A program made the position numbers and the translations under genes. From an uncultured Clostridia bacterium (GTDB lineage: Bacteria > Bacillota > Clostridia > Oscillospirales > Ruminococcaceae), in assembly GCA_947389015.1 (NCBI GenBank), contig CANDVA010000003.1:62001-126000 (forward strand): a stretch of DNA of 64,000 nt. Reading direction: 5' to 3'. The notes beneath the pieces are model-generated. The model was not told the origin of the DNA. It made no database searches and saw only the letters and a list, made by a program, of their open reading frames with translations. This document shows positions 5,638-48,253 of the stretch, piece after piece. Position 1 is the first letter of the stretch; the number at the start of each line of letters is the position of its first letter.

Positions 5638-6828
5638 GTGAACAAATACTCTTATGTTGCCACCGACGTCAACGGCCGTACCGTCAGAGGACAGGAGCTA
5701 GCGGAGGATTATAAGGACCTTCAGGCAAGACTGAGGGAACGAAAGCTCTACGTTACAAGCTACCGCGATCTCGGCGGGGGCGTCGCGGACGTCAAGTACA
5801 AATTCAAGACCAAGGAGGTTTCTTTCATCAGCCGTCAGCTGGCGTCTATGACTTCTGCGGGTCTGTCACTGGTAAGAGCACTGCACATTCTCCAGGAACA
5901 GCAGGAAAATAAAAAGGCAAAGGCTGTCCTGCTGGATATCTACGAGGAGGTTCAAAAGGGTAAATCCTTCTCCGACGTACTTATTTCGAAGCCGGGCGTT
6001 TTTCCGGACATGTTTGTAAGTATGGTGGCCGCCGGTGAAGCGTCGGGTACTCTCGATCAGATGCTGAACAGATTGTCCGACCACTACGCTAACGCTAACA
6101 AGACCGCTAACAAGGCTAAATCGGCGATGGTTTATCCTATCGTTCTGGGCGTTTTGCTGCTCGTGGTACTGATATTCATGTTCGTGGCGATTCTCCCGAC
6201 GTTCAAGGATATGATGAATCCGGAGGATATCACGCCTATTTCGGCGGCGTTGATCGCGTTTTCCGATTCGCTTATCGGTTACTGGTATATTTACGTGATC
6301 GCTATAGTGGCTGTTATATTTGTATTTATGCTTATGCACAGAACTCCCTCGACGCGTTTGAAGATGGATGAGCTTCTGCTGAAGATACCGAAGGTCGGAA
6401 AGCTTATCGCGACAATGTATACGGGACGTTTCGCGAGAAGCATGGCTAACCTGTACGGCGCGGGTCTGCAAATGGTTGAATGTATAGAAAAGTCCGTCGA
6501 CACTATCGGAAATACATATGTTGACAAACGCTTCAAAGACGTTGTCAACGATATCAAGCTCGGCGAGAGCATGTCGAAGGCTATCGAGAAAACAGGAATA
6601 TTTGAGGGTATGTTTACCTCAATTATATATGTCGGCGAGGAATCCGGTACGCTGGATACGATCCTCAACAAGGCTGCGGACTATTACGAGGAAGAAGCCG
6701 ATTCGGCAATCACAAAGCTGGTAGGTTTGATGGAGCCGTTGATGATCATCATCATGGGCGTCGCGATCGGTTTTTTCCTCGCGGGCGTATTCCCGATGCT
6801 CTACGGCGGAATGACAAACGTTGCGTAA
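5638..6828 (+). CDS. pilC: Type IV pilus inner-membrane platform protein
   Basis: PilC is the polytopic membrane platform on which the pilus motors act. The 396-aa protein has two T2SSF domains (about 60-190 and 262-388), each holding a GE-SGTLD motif (131-140 and 332-340). Transmembrane helices lie near 165-189, 212-233 and 359-385. The GTG at 5638 is used because GGAACGGAGG lies 7 bases upstream and the product begins MNKYSYVATD, the usual PilC N-terminus; the open frame extends further upstream without support. It heads a long co-directional pilus gene set. Confidence 0.93.
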   Translation: MNKYSYVATDVNGRTVRGQELAEDYKDLQARLRERKLYVTSYRDLGGGVADVKYKFKTKEVSFISRQLASMTSAGLSLVRALHILQEQQENKKAKAVLLDIYEEVQKGKSFSDVLISKPGVFPDMFVSMVAAGEASGTLDQMLNRLSDHYANANKTANKAKSAMVYPIVLGVLLLVVLIFMFVAILPTFKDMMNPEDITPISAALIAFSDSLIGYWYIYVIAIVAVIFVFMLMHRTPSTRLKMDELLLKIPKVGKLIATMYTGRFARSMANLYGAGLQMVECIEKSVDTIGNTYVDKRFKDVVNDIKLGESMSKAIEKTGIFEGMFTSIIYVGEESGTLDTILNKAADYYEEEADSAITKLVGLMEPLMIIIMGVAIGFFLAGVFPMLYGGMTNVA

Positions 6829-43907: not shown

Positions 43908-44747
43908 ATGAAGAATTTCTGTATTTTCGCGGACGCGGTGAACTATATCGAGGAGAATTTGTGTAACGAAGTAACACAGGACGATATCGCGGCGGCTTGC
44001 TGCTGCTCGCTGTCGGCGCTGCAAAAGGTGTGGCGCTACTGTACGCATACCAGTCTCAAGGAATACATCACCAAGCGGCGGCTGACAAGGAGCGCGGAGG
44101 ATATCGCGCACACCGATATGACGCTGACCGAAATAGCCATGAAATATCAGTACAATTCACCCGAGGTGTTTACGCGGGCATTCCGTAAGCTTTGGGGCGT
44201 TTCTCCCTCCAAATTCAGGACTAAATGGCATTCGACGGGGTTATTTCCGCGGATAATCCCCGACGAGAGCACGCTCAAAGGAGGAATTTATATGGGCAGA
44301 CGAGTTGATATTACCGAGCTTTACAACGAGCTGAGACCAACAGACCGCGATAACTGGGTGCTATGTTTTGACATCGTGAATTTTTCGGATGTCAATAAGA
44401 ACATTGGCAGGGACGCGGGCGACGTGGTTATCCGCGAAGCTTTCCGTCGTGTCGACGCGGCGGCGGGGGACACTATGGCGGCGTTCCGTATCGGAGGCGA
44501 CGAGTTCGCCGTAGTAACGGGAACGGACAACAAGACCACCGCCGAGGAGACCGCTCAAAAGGTCGTTTCGCTGAACGGGCAGCCCGTCGAATTCAACGGC
44601 AAGGGGATACCTCTTACAATGCGCGTGGGGGCGATAAAGCTCACTGCGAACATTCACAGTATGCGCTTTGCGGAGCTGTTTGACCGTATGCAGAACGCGA
44701 TCAACGAGACCCGTGACGCAGGCGCGGTGATTTTCTTTAACGGTTAA
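43908..44747 (+). CDS. AraC-type DNA-binding / GGDEF fusion protein
   Basis: The 279-aa protein joins an AraC/XylS double helix-turn-helix (about 5-105: DDIAAACCCS, then TEIAMKYQYNSPEVFTRAF) to a GGDEF diguanylate cyclase-like domain (about 145-275). The GGDEF motif (RIGGDEF, GGDEF at 196-200) and the first metal Asp region (FDIVNFSDVN) are intact; no RxxD inhibitory site precedes it. ATG 43908 follows GGAGGTGGG. A perfect internal SD and ATG at 44292 (residue 129) sit at the domain border. It may link c-di-GMP and transcription. Activity is inferred, not shown. Confidence 0.85.
   Translation: MKNFCIFADAVNYIEENLCNEVTQDDIAAACCCSLSALQKVWRYCTHTSLKEYITKRRLTRSAEDIAHTDMTLTEIAMKYQYNSPEVFTRAFRKLWGVSPSKFRTKWHSTGLFPRIIPDESTLKGGIYMGRRVDITELYNELRPTDRDNWVLCFDIVNFSDVNKNIGRDAGDVVIREAFRRVDAAAGDTMAAFRIGGDEFAVVTGTDNKTTAEETAQKVVSLNGQPVEFNGKGIPLTMRVGAIKLTANIHSMRFAELFDRMQNAINETRDAGAVIFFNG
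44277..44294 (+). promoter_or_regulatory. Internal ribosome binding site and start codon
   Basis: AAAGGAGG (44277-44284), seven bases, ATG (44292), in frame within the AraC-GGDEF gene. Initiation here would yield a 151-aa protein of the GGDEF part only. Confidence 0.65.
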
Positions 44748-44754
44748 TAAAAAG

Positions 44755-44786
44755 GCGGAGGGCTTATGGCTCTCCGCTCATTTTAT
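44755..44786. terminator. Bidirectional terminator between convergent genes
   Basis: GCGGAG/CTCCGC (44755-44760, 44772-44777) form a hairpin with inner GC/GC pairs, followed by TCATTTTATC on the plus strand. It separates the AraC-GGDEF gene from rubrerythrin. Confidence 0.7.
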
Positions 44787-45322
44787 CAATAGTTTTCCGC
44801 GCTGATTTCAAAATAGGACTGCGGGTGACTGCAGACGGGGCAGATCTCGGGCGCGTTGGTGCCCACTACGATATGTCCGCAGTTGCGGCACTCCCAGACC
44901 TTGACCTCGCTTTTGGCAAAGACCTCCCGCATCTCGACGTTTTTCAGCAGCGCGCGGTAACGCTCCTCGTGACGCTTTTCGATAGCGGCAACTGCGCGAA
45001 ATTTCGCGGCAAGCTCGGTAAATCCCTCATCCTCGGCTGTCTTTGCAAAGCTCTCGTACATATCCGTCCATTCGTGGTTCTCGCCGTCCGCGGCAGCCTT
45101 AAGGTTTTCGGATGTGTCGCCGATACCGTTCAGCTCCTTGAACCACATCTTCGCGTGTTCCTTCTCGTTGTCGGCTGTTTTCAGGAAAAGAGCTGCGATC
45201 TGCTCGAACCCCTCTTTTTTTGCCTTGGACGCGAAATATGTATACTTATTTCTTGCCTGGGACTCGCCCGCGAAAGCTGCCTCCAAATTTTTTTCGGTTT
45301 TTGTACCTGCGTATTTGCTCAT
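44786..45322 (-). CDS. rbr: Rubrerythrin
   Basis: Rubrerythrin reduces hydrogen peroxide in anaerobes. The 178-aa protein has a ferritin-like diiron four-helix domain with the ExxH and EKxHxxR motifs ([22 protein letters not shown]) and a C-terminal rubredoxin-like FeS4 domain with CRNC and CPVC pairs (about 144-164). ATG 45322 follows AAGGAGAA. It has its own promoter. A rubredoxin gene at 58.4 kb could supply electrons. Confidence 0.96.
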
Positions 45323-45372
45323 TGTTACATTCTCCTTTTTATAGTGTTCGCCATGCGGCATTTGGTACTTTA

Positions 45373-45401
45373 ATTATAACATTATGGCGCGGAAAAAGCA
45401 A
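45373..45401 (-). promoter_or_regulatory. Sigma-A promoter for rubrerythrin
   Basis: On the minus strand TTGCTT (45401-45396), 17 bases, TATAAT (45378-45373). It is independent of the RNA unit upstream. Confidence 0.8.
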
Positions 45402-45422
45402 TAGTTTCGGAAAGATTACGAG

Positions 45423-46047
45423 CCCCCGTTTTCTCGCGGAGGCTCGGATATATTCAATTGTTATAAATTTGGTATTACATCGGACCGTACTCCCTATTAA
45501 AATTTGATCATACAACAAATTTTATCGGACATCGGACTCATTCCTTTCAGTCAGCTTTGCAAAGCTAATATTTTCCTAACCTCAATTTTAAAGCGCACAT
45601 CGCAATCACCACTTTCGATACGGCTTATCTATGTAAACGCTTAACGCGGTAGAAAATATCTGCGGACTGCCGAAAACCTCTGCGGTTTTCTTAATTAGGT
45701 TAGACACCTTGTCGGGGCGGATTTTGCGCTTTCGGGAACAAGTCCCGCGCAAATCATCGCCGATATTTTAACCTCAGCGGCCGGCGGGTTGCGACTCCGC
45801 AGACAGTTTGAAAAAATGTTCCGTTATTTCCATGGGACTCGCTTCCTTTCTGCTCAAAGCTGATTTTATTGCCGTTGCAAGTTCAACAAGCCATTGGAGT
45901 AACTCCTTTCAAAGTAGCGGCTAGACTCTACCAAGCCTTCGCCTTACTGCCTCAAACTCAGTTTTCCATTGGACTGAACTCCTTTCGGTATATTTAAAGG
46001 AGACCCGTACCGACCTCTCGGCTTGTCTTCGGGTTCTCTCTTTCCTT
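45423..46047 (-). ncRNA. Large structured transcript with four SD-AUG cassettes
   Basis: About 620 nt without a credible long reading frame lie behind a consensus promoter and end near a GC-rich hairpin (about 45423-45448). Four copies of GAAAGGA-N5/6-GTCC-N-ATG(G) occur on the minus strand at 45966-45986, 45891-45910, 45830-45850 and 45530-45548. Their AUG codons open reading frames of only 3, 3, 19 and 11 codons. Many stems are perfect, for example CTCCTTT/AAAGGAG (which would hide the first SD), GGAGT/ACTCC, GGGA/TCCC inside GCGC/GCGC, GAAAACC/GGTTTTC and AAAATTTG/CAAATTTT. No match to RNase P, tmRNA, 6S or SRP by eye. It could instead be a decayed gene. Confidence 0.6.
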
Positions 46048-46053
46048 GATATA

Positions 46054-46082
46054 ATGATACCACACTTTTTGGTAAATGTCAA
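46054..46082 (-). promoter_or_regulatory. Sigma-A promoter of the structured transcript
   Basis: On the minus strand TTGACA (46082-46077), 17 bases, TATCAT (46059-46054). The predicted start is near 46047. Confidence 0.85.
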
Positions 46083-46199
46083 TAGAATTTTTTATTTTTT
46101 TCATGGGCGTTTTGTATATATTTTTTTGATTTGTTTTGGTGAAAGTAATGATAATTCCAAGAAAACCGTGAAAACGATATTGTTTCACAAAATTTCCTC

Positions 46200-46228
46200 T
46201 TGACAATAACGCACGGGTGATGTAAAAT
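46200..46228 (+). promoter_or_regulatory. Sigma-A promoter for the DUF1292 gene
   Basis: TTGACA (46200-46205), 17 bases, TAAAAT (46223-46228). Confidence 0.85.
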
Positions 46229-46288
46229 ATAAACACAAGCGTGATTCTTTTCACAAAGAAAATCTCACGCACGGAAAGGCGGTCGGAT

Positions 46289-46624
46289 ATGGCTGAAAAT
46301 GAAGATGCTTTCCTTGACGAGGACGAGGGAATTATTGAGCTCGAGGACGAGGAAGGAAACGTTACGCGGTTTGAGTTTGTGGATCGCACGGAGATAAACG
46401 GAGTGGTCTACTACGCGCTTATCCCTGCCGATTACGATGAGGAAGAGGGCGCGGCGGAGTTCGTTGTGCTTAAGGAGACCGAGATCGACGGTGAGTCCAT
46501 GCTCGCGACCATCGACGACGATGCGGAATACAACGAGGTCGGAGAGGTGTTTCTGCAGCGTTTTTCGGAACTTCCCGAGCTTGATGTCGAGGATCTTGAA
46601 AAGCTTGACGGCGTTGAAGAATAA
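46289..46624 (+). CDS. DUF1292 family protein (YrzB-like)
   Basis: The 111-aa very acidic protein contains the DUF1292 pattern (IIELEDEEGNVTRFEFVD, then VYYALIPAD and EFVVLKE), two beta-rich motifs typical of the family, which is widespread in Firmicutes and lacks a known function. ATG 46289 follows GGAAAGGCGG; the longer frame from 46241 has no RBS. It is a monocistronic unit with a strong promoter, followed by a separate small RNA unit. Confidence 0.88.
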   Translation: MAENEDAFLDEDEGIIELEDEEGNVTRFEFVDRTEINGVVYYALIPADYDEEEGAAEFVVLKETEIDGESMLATIDDDAEYNEVGEVFLQRFSELPELDVEDLEKLDGVEE

Positions 46625-46667
46625 TCTTTGCATTACGGGAAAGAATAATGCTGTAAATACTACTGCC

Positions 46668-46695
46668 TTGATTCGCGAATGTGTGCTACTATAAT
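46668..46695 (+). promoter_or_regulatory. Sigma-A promoter of a small RNA
   Basis: TTGATT (46668-46673), 16 bases, TATAAT (46690-46695). The predicted start is around 46702. Confidence 0.75.
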
Positions 46696-46701
46696 CCAAC
46701 A

Positions 46702-46890
46702 CATTGTAAACGGGATTTCGTCTCCGACGGCGGATTGCAGACCTCCTTTAAGCTTCGGCTTATTGTTGGTGGGAGCGTGAAAACGTCGGGCGATTTTACC
46801 CACCCTGCCATTAGCGGGTTTTATATTGCATCTTACGGCAAGGCGGTAACAATTTAATAGTGTGCGGGGAGCTTTTTGGCTCCCCGTTTT
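46702..46890 (+). ncRNA. Stand-alone small RNA, about 190 nt, 6S-like candidate
   Basis: A promoter and a strong terminator (CGGGGAGC/GCTCCCCG, 46865-46886, then TTTT) bracket about 190 nt with no reading frame. The ends can pair (CACA near 46700 with TGTG 46861-46864; TTGT with ACAA 46849-46852), and a central hairpin GGTGGG/CCCACC with an inner helix fills the middle, beside a small AAGC-TTCG-GCTT hairpin. Size, terminal helix and monocistronic layout fit 6S RNA, but no consensus bubble was verified. Confidence 0.55.
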
Positions 46891-46907
46891 GTGTTGGCGG
46901 AATAAGT

Positions 46908-47225
46908 TAAATCAGAATTTAGCGCAGTAATTTCACGGCACCCTCCGCGCGAAGCGCGGAAAAAAGTTTTTCGCCAAGCCTTTTTTCAAAAAGGCTTGCG
47001 GAGTGCAGAGGCAGAGCCTCTGCGCAGGTTTGGGCGGCAGCCCAAAATGCCGCGTAGCGGCATAAGAAAGAGCGCTAAAAGGGCTTGGGGAAAAACAAGA
47101 GTTTTTCCCCAAATCGGTGGTTTTGCCAACAGGCAAAATCGCCGATAAATCACTTTTTTCTGCCGGTGGCAGAAAAAAGTGATCCGCGCTCTAAGCAACA
47201 CCTTACTGATATAAATTCTGATTTA
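46908..47225 (+). mobile_element. MITE-like element packed with hairpins
   Basis: Terminal inverted repeats of 23 bp with one run of three mismatches (46908-46930 and 47203-47225: TAAATCAGAATTTA-N3-CAGTAA) bound 318 bp, with TA at both outer edges, as for Tc1/IS630-type targets. Inside are eight consecutive near-perfect hairpins: 46945-46959, 46975-46998, 47005-47023, 47029-47046, 47048-47062, 47085-47112, 47115-47144 and 47149-47183 (16-bp stem). An outer stem AGAGCGC/GCGCTCT (47069-47075, 47186-47192) encloses the last three. No transposase is present. Confidence 0.75.
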
Positions 47226-47383
47226 CCTATACATTTACACCGATACAAGACTTTAATGTGAAAAAAATTTCACATTTTTTAAATACCCCCTTTTTTTTTT
47301 CATAATAATATGTTATAATATATATGTATACAATGGTTTATTGTATCAATTTCCCAAAAATTCGGAAAGAAGAGGTGCCTAAA

Positions 47384-48253
47384 ATGGCTTTCAGTGACTT
47401 AAAGCCCGTATGCGTCATCGATGATGACAGCGGTCGTACATACATCATCGGAAGCGTGTTCGCGGTTTATGGGGCGGTGGGCTCGGAGCCGCCGCTCGTA
47501 TACAGCTGGGATATGGTGCGCAATGTCGCGGTAACGCGTAAGGAAATCACTATAGAGACCGCCAACAAGAGTTTTTGCATCACCAATAAAATGATCTCGG
47601 ATATTGAGGAGATCCTGCGAACTATCGCGATAATCGAGTGTCGTCAGAAAGAATACAATTTCGGATATCAGCATGAAAAGCGTATGTTCCCGCTGAAATC
47701 CATGTATACCGAGTGCTCCCCGGGGAAAGAGACCTACACGGGAGAGGGTATGCTCGACGACGGCGAGACCGCGGCGGCATTCATTATGCTTCTCAATTTC
47801 AAGCTGGTGAAATTTTTGTGGCTTATCGCGCTGCTTATTATGCTGGTAGTATTTGGCACTCTGCATATTACCATTGGCATATCGCGGGACAATATATTGT
47901 ACTTCGTGCCGATCTCGATCGCTTCGGGCGGCATAGCCTCGCTGTTGGTTTATATCATCACACACGCGGTGGCAAGGGCGAAGTTCAAACGGCTGGCCGA
48001 CGCCGATCTCGCTACAAGACAGCCCATAACGTTCGTTGTGAGCAGAGCGGGCTTTGCCGCCTGCGAAAGCTGCACCTACGAAAGCAGAGACCTTGTGCCG
48101 TGGAGCGAGTTGGACTATTTTATCGAGTCGGATAAAATGTTTATCCTGTATAAAAACAACGCCGCGGTAGCTTATATTCCCAAAAAGGCGTTTGATAAAA
48201 AGTTTGTTGGCGGAATTGCGGATATTATCGCGCTGAGCCTTGAACAACGATAA
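47384..48253 (+). CDS. YcxB-like membrane protein
   Basis: The 289-aa protein has an N-terminal soluble domain with strands and a helix (1 to about 135), two transmembrane helices (about 142-166 and 177-200) and a C-terminal strand-rich domain (FVVSRAGFAACES, then LVPWSELDYFIES and YIPKKAF), the last resembling the YcxB/PH-like domain. ATG 47384 follows GAAGAGGTG. A TATAAT lies at 47314-47319 but no good -35, because a run of 12 T precedes it. It starts a co-directional three-gene set. Function unknown. Confidence 0.65.
   Translation: MAFSDLKPVCVIDDDSGRTYIIGSVFAVYGAVGSEPPLVYSWDMVRNVAVTRKEITIETANKSFCITNKMISDIEEILRTIAIIECRQKEYNFGYQHEKRMFPLKSMYTECSPGKETYTGEGMLDDGETAAAFIMLLNFKLVKFLWLIALLIMLVVFGTLHITIGISRDNILYFVPISIASGGIASLLVYIITHAVARAKFKRLADADLATRQPITFVVSRAGFAACESCTYESRDLVPWSELDYFIESDKMFILYKNNAAVAYIPKKAFDKKFVGGIADIIALSLEQR

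Follow-up and report, generated by a model that had tools for sequence, protein, structure and literature searches.

A free-standing structured RNA with putative serial ribosome entry sites and conserved early stops in a clostridial genus

What could be the use of a bacterial transcript that offers ribosomes several starting points and hardly anything to translate? Noncoding RNAs are normally defined by the absence of translation, and the question is raised by a unit lying in the stretch of 64,000 nucleotides analysed here (64 kb, hereafter the window) of an uncultured Clostridia bacterium, the relatives of which are animal-gut dwellers. An initial annotation had considered the unit to be a ribosome-interacting regulatory RNA, a leader-peptide array or a decayed gene. 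Comparison between genomes favours the first option and speaks against the other two, since an SD, an AUG and an early stop are kept in a covarying RNA that has its own promoter. In the reading developed below, to which we give about an even chance, the unit is a structured noncoding RNA that stands alone, is transcribed from a promoter of its own and offers ribosomes an array of entry sites, several of which open very short frames.

All elements of the unit are found on the minus strand, running from about 46047 to 45420 (~630 nt). A −35 box TTGACA (46077..46082, minus) and, after a 17-nt spacer, a −10 box TATCAT (46054..46059, minus) can be read directly in the sequence, which bears out the promoter TTGACA-N17-TATCAT proposed initially (46082-46054, minus strand); the start of the RNA at 46047 was inferred from the position of this promoter. 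The GC-rich hairpin at which the unit had been said to end is likewise there (45445-45420): it is a terminator-like element (45420..45445, minus) read in the sequence and also present in the predicted fold, and inspection by eye of 40 of the 43 3′ flanks showed a GC-rich hairpin after an element of the AAUUGAAUA type. Matches at the DNA level throughout the genus, covariation and the stability of the fold (minimum free energy of −188.2 kcal/mol for its own sequence, z −3.44 against 20 shuffles) speak for a structured noncoding RNA at 45420..46047 of the minus strand.

A blastn-type comparison with related genomes, as suggested at the outset, revealed how regularly this RNA occurs. Among 100 genomes searched with the DNA, 43 gave a match, corresponding to 42 of the 43 genomes of the genus (its own included) and to 1 of 57 others; the sole genome of the genus lacking a DNA match (G036) is 89% complete, and several of the same-genus DNA matches cover only part of the unit. 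All 42 copies of the genus are preceded by a TATTGAC-type promoter, and the copy from another genus (G044) by a TGTTGAC one. A divergent gene for a DUF1292 protein (PF06949) lies at most 1 kb upstream of the RNA in 38 of the 42 genus copies, G004, G012, G015 and G021 being those with no such gene nearby. Downstream, the next open reading frame of at least 100 amino acids lies on the strand of the RNA in 20 of the 40 genomes compared and on the other strand in the remaining 20, and the downstream genes fall in different protein clusters from one genome to another. This bears on the idea of a cis-acting leader, in which translation of the small frames would attenuate the gene that follows, as suggested by a terminator-like hairpin placed after SD-AUG-stop modules and, in this genome, by a rubrerythrin gene (PF02915) downstream on the same strand. 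With the next gene varying and no fixed same-strand neighbour, such a leader is largely refuted and we regard it as very improbable. Having a promoter of its own and no fixed neighbour downstream, the RNA is free-standing, and since the next gene occurs on either strand it probably acts in trans. Nor do the tiny frames, the one feature recalling a decayed protein gene, outweigh the conservation of promoter, structure and modules, which refutes that reading and leaves it a practically negligible probability. A mobile or phage origin was also considered and rejected, as blastn gave no match at E 1e-5 among 50,697 phage and 72,556 plasmid records.

On the other side of the DUF1292 gene, and directly after it, the window holds a candidate 6S RNA (46657-46853, plus strand; 42.9 bits, E 1.1e-6, gathering score 46.4). 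The 6S model matched in 8 of 8 loci of the genus (3 above gathering) and, elsewhere in the family, in 3 of 3 loci (2 above gathering); where coordinates were compared, these matches fall on the side of DUF1292 away from the RNA, so that this gene is flanked by two noncoding RNAs, the 6S candidate and the RNA described here.

The most singular trait of the unit is its set of SD-AUG cassettes. The four described initially are all present inside it, and the same lengths of 3, 3, 19 and 11 codons were obtained for their frames. The pattern AAAGGA-N3-9-TCC-N-AUG has four matches in the 64-kb window, every one inside the unit, against an expectation of 0.04, and none of 100 shuffles reached four; a slightly wider pattern has nine matches in the 2.9-Mb genome, four of them in the unit, and one when reversed. 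On the minus strand, module C1 (45958..45985) joins the SD AAAGGAG and UCCA to the frame AUG GAA AAC UGA, C2 (45883..45909) the same SD and UCCA to AUG GCU UGU UGA, C3 (45774..45849) AAAGGA and GUCC to the 19-codon frame, and C4 (45497..45547) AAAGGA and GUCCG to the 11-codon frame, which passes through a hairpin. A fifth cassette, C5 (GGGAG-N5-UCCG-AUG-UAA; 45475..45494), with its start directly abutting its stop, had been overlooked. C1, C2 and C5 are thus minigenes of the bar type, with an SD, an AUG and a stop within 1-3 codons; C3 is never that short, and C4 only in 10 of 41 genomes.

To compare the modules across the genus they were assigned by thresholds on predicted anti-SD energy (all but C3), with C5 further required to stop within 4 codons and C3 to span at least 14; under this rule the first module was labelled C2 in G003 and G035, and in G012 the C3, which has a GUG start, was overlooked. 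All five modules were assigned in 28 of 41 complete copies, one copy having two and five having three. A stop within three codons is found in frame 0 at C1 in 31 of 34 genomes (3 in +1, 4 in +2), at C2 in 27 of 30 (1 and 3) and at C5 in 41 of 41 (7 and 1), a frame control that leaves out the codon overlapping the AUG. The stops are not one inherited word, since many different frames end early: C1 has 22 distinct frames of at most five codons, 19 of them of at most three and using UAA, UGA and UAG, and C2 has 18, of which 17 are of at most three codons and use UAA and UGA. C5 reads AUG-UAA in 35 of 41 genomes, and the other six stop at codon 3 or 4, as AUG-UAC-UGA (two), AUG-AAC followed by UAA, UGA or UAG (one each) and AUG-AAC-CAG-UAA (one). 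The counts for C3 (41 genomes) and for C4 and C5 (30 aligned rows) were repeated without the assignment conditions: in rows chosen with no stop condition C5 kept its AUG in 30 of 30 and an early stop (at most three codons) in 30 of 30, and C4 its AUG in 30 of 30. The C4 frame has 11-12 codons in 30 of 41 genomes, 2-3 codons in 10 and 7 codons in one; early stops also occur in frame +2 of this module, in 22 of the 41. The SDs drift in their letters, at C4 from GAAAGGA to AGGAGGU (for example GAAAGGAUUGAGUCC and AGGAGGUUGAGUCC), and keep their complementarity to the 16S tail. Mean predicted anti-SD energies for C1-C5 were −12.0, −10.6, −12.3, −10.6 and −8.1, compared with −4.1 in windows elsewhere and −5.0 at 299 further AUGs in these RNAs (17.4% of which have an SD-like sequence at −9 kcal/mol or better), although these means are partly circular because energy thresholds had assigned all modules but C3.

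Would these frames encode useful products? A polycistron of functional micropeptides gains some appeal from C3, which spans 16-23 codons in 41 of 41 genomes, with no length condition imposed; among 44 distinct starts, some of them from other genera, 42 have GA-N (Glu/Asp, with all four third bases) as codon 5. Past codon 5, however, the C3 peptide is variable, its conserved nucleotides falling in shifted frames (SAES, SAAR, CGS), and the products of C1, C2 and C5 mostly comprise 1-3 residues with no conserved sequence, so that we consider micropeptides unlikely. What selection appears to keep is the ribosome site and its early stop, not a peptide. A different use of the same motifs would be that of a sponge in which the GGA of each module binds CsrA. 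CsrB/RsmZ are sponge RNAs for CsrA, with repeated GGA/SD-like modules resembling those seen here, and 38 of the genus's 43 genomes have CsrA. On the other hand, GGA is not enriched in the RNA (12 against 12.3 ± 3.3 in 500 Markov-resampled copies), and the five genomes of 43 in which CsrA was not found all keep the RNA: four of them (G002, G005, G007 and G010) are 96-99% complete and the fifth, G025, 75%, the gene possibly having been missed in these drafts. A CsrA sponge moreover predicts neither the AUG nor the stops that, unlike in CsrB/RsmZ, are conserved here, and was rejected as highly improbable for its lack of GGA excess and the retention of the RNA where CsrA was not found. The RNA sequences of G002, G005, G007 and G010 are very similar to one another.

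As to the fold, the proposal that named segments sequester the SDs was not confirmed. The CTCCTTT segment, said to pair with the first SD, pairs with the 5′ end of the RNA in the minimum-energy structure, and predicted folds showed no consistent masking of SDs, whose predicted unpaired fraction of 0.28-0.45 is close to the background of 0.39 for the RNA; SD and AUG together are no more exposed in these folds than the rest of it. Covariation was counted in a 3′ alignment (A1) and a core alignment (A3) of 30 and 29 of the 42 same-genus copies, with near-duplicates left out of both; A3 was also made without G008, G017, G026, G028, G037, G018 and its near-duplicate G041, which were harder to align, and without G038 and the truncated G030. 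In the core, a long-range helix joins UCUGCGGA (45796..45803, minus), the first seven residues of which are invariant in 29 of the 29 chosen rows, to UCCGCAGA (45659..45666, minus), as seen in the core alignment; it is 98.7% paired in these 29 sequences and, being nearly invariant, says little for or against pairing. Inside it lies hairpin D (45716..45761, minus, ends approximate), where both partners have changed at 11 of the 13 pairs. Over the three helices counted in A3 there are 61 cells with both-side changes; shuffles gave 18.4 ± 4.0, and none of 500 attained this level. Pairing falls from 92.9% to 28-50% when the partner strand is slid. The structure used was derived from the same A3 alignment, and two short helices were dropped from it before counting. 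Beyond the long-range helix lies hairpin E with the conserved GCGUUUACAUA (45591..45642, minus, ends approximate), in which A1 gave 84.1% of cells paired and both-side changes at 1 of 10 pairs. Support is weaker in the 3′ region, where a hairpin between the C4 start and C5 (45496..45526, minus, ends approximate) has both-side changes at 5 of 11 pairs: A1 holds 22 such cells, a figure reached by 6 of 500 shuffles and leaning towards the supplied structure because this was taken from the whole-unit fold. The pairs with both-side changes (6) and the further pair types (27) in A1 were not above shuffles, and RNAalifold found no pairs on this alignment, probably owing to its gap-rich columns. Altogether, comparison of sequences establishes the unit, its structure and the conservation of SD, AUG and early stop. 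An extra AUG occurs in hairpin E (GGUGAUUGCGAUGUGCGCUUUAA; 45565-45612, minus) behind GGUG, reading MCALKLRLGKY here by eye, and is kept in many, not all, genomes.

The statement that the unit resembles no nameable RNA class agrees with the comparison with Rfam (4227 families), which yielded no fitting family: the whole window had no match at the gathering threshold, and a relaxed search of 44700-47400 and 14 other loci produced no credible match on the RNA itself; in the window, SNORD49 (17.1 bits, E 0.72) was the sole model seen to overlap it. OLE, ROOL and GOLLD are likewise bacterial, structured and several hundred nucleotides long, but the RNA here has no Rfam match, and we know of no minigene array in any of them.

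Related forms in other genera were detected through the third cassette. A model of the 3′ region (R1) matched 15 of 396 genomes of the family, 7 of which belong to the genus itself, the matches being spread over 7 of 126 genera; a model of the C3 module (R2) matched 57 of the 396, again including 7 from the genus, and reached 24 of the 126 genera. We inspected 26 of the 50 R2 matches of the family outside the genus (G415 included), mostly the best-scoring, the other 24 being mostly weaker. The divergent DUF1292 gene lies upstream in 25 of these 26 loci, the exception (G451) being near a contig end; ten loci viewed in other genera included seven with DUF1292, and G329 and G451 were cut by contig ends. 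At least one short-frame site is found on the RNA strand in 23 of the 26, and the remaining three have C3 and no short frame; counted over whole loci of 2-3 kb, beyond the RNA alone, such sites number 58 on the RNA strand and 2 on the other. The frame control is weaker in these genomes than within the genus: at 71 distinct sites from other genera a stop within three codons occurs 48 times in frame 0, 34 times in +1, a count inflated by ATGA giving UGA in that frame, and 3 times in +2. The most extended case, G191, has seven sites in a row spaced by 54, 52, 50, 53, 51 and 52 nt, with a stop within three codons at five of them. Gaps of 48-58 nt account for 36 of 53 between successive sites in other genera, a list that contains near-duplicate loci and lacks G336, and whose reverse-strand control, with only 5 sites, was too small to use; within the genus, C4 and C5 are 52 nt apart in 26 of 41 genomes (range 46-57).

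These arrays weigh on a further explanation, that the RNA base-pairs in trans or is a protein-bound scaffold whose structured core does the work, the ribosome sites only protecting or refolding it. It is in the core between C3 and C4, not in the minigenes, that the strongest covariation and the longest invariant sequence are found. Alone, this explanation leaves unaccounted for the multiplication of SD-AUG sites to seven, about 52 nt apart, in another genus, and we judge it rather unlikely, if the most serious of the alternatives. The array of ribosome entry sites would instead operate as follows. Ribosomes may initiate at the SD-AUG modules; at C1, C2 and C5 the stop would be met at once (AUG-UAA, or one to two further codons), so that ribosomes would bind and terminate at fixed points and not travel through the folded RNA, whereas translation of the longer C3 frame may serve to open a hairpin. 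With a ribosome taking up some 30-40 nt, a spacing of about 52 nt would let neighbouring sites be occupied together. The purpose, we infer, would be to retain initiating ribosomes in trans or to keep count of them, so as to brake translation or sense its capacity. More specifically, and somewhat short of an even chance, the RNA may be a riboregulator of a new class in which ribosomes dock serially on start-stop minigenes ~52 nt apart, as a holding scaffold or a gauge of free initiating ribosomes in the family. Another possible output would be the tying up of tRNA as peptidyl-tRNA, which minigene translation can cause (PMC8012679); given the variety of codons, this would not seem aimed at any one tRNA.

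Some known systems are similar in part. Expression of the phage lambda bar minigenes (AUG-AUA-UAA), which share with those here an AUG followed by a stop after one or two codons, can release peptidyl-tRNA and starve the cell of tRNA (PMC8012679), but they are described there as phage minigenes, in contrast to an array in a chromosomal covarying RNA whose variable codons single out no tRNA. Ribosomes stall on an AUGUAA start-stop element, like that of C5, in the plant NIP5;1 mRNA (PMC11915504), although this one acts in cis in the 5′-UTR of a single mRNA. The uORF/leader-peptide motifs odc1 and ilvB also conserve a start and an in-frame stop in structured RNA (PMC8632094, PMC11109978), but precede a fixed gene, which is lacking here. 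A search of open-access papers found no description of such an RNA. We know of none of this make-up, and for these two reasons we hold that, function aside, its architecture, as judged from sequence, is new in kind. Selection appears to preserve ribosome sites throughout the genus and yet to forbid translation past a few codons, and a related form reaches many genera of the family; if ribosomes do dock on it, this would be an RNA mode of sensing or controlling translation for which no described counterpart was found.

In the order, R2 matched 10 of 295 genomes, three of which belong to other families, and in the class 4 of 291, one falsely. Among the candidates set aside, the R2 match of G1010 corresponds to the beginning of a long protein, that of G698 is doubtful as it adjoins a protein gene on its 5′ side, and G204, a weak R1 match (E 0.02) having neither DUF1292 nor array, is probably false. 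A pattern scan of genome contigs gave 33 matches, 31 of them apparently from the same genus by eye and two, in Mycobacterium and an Acidobacteria metagenome-assembled genome, due to chance. In another family of the order (f13), R2 matched 4 of 87 genomes. Loci L164 and L165, and by eye L168 and L169, have a promoter and one C3-type module in a stretch of several hundred nucleotides; L164 and L165 have neither array nor DUF1292 within the locus examined, and no Rfam match on the promoter-driven stretch. The C3-type peptide MV[LI]EEASY.FAGLAA.L is found in L165, L168 and L169 (the last two by eye) and GCCGAUGGGCAUAC is shared among the loci, and the stretch is likely to be homologous to the minigene RNA. 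As regards the arrays themselves, loci L126 (oriented 1-560) and L124 (oriented 6000-6420) include extra GGAGUGAGUCC-type motifs with no AUG, and L126 has a two-module unit of ~200 nt repeated in tandem, the copies being near-identical.
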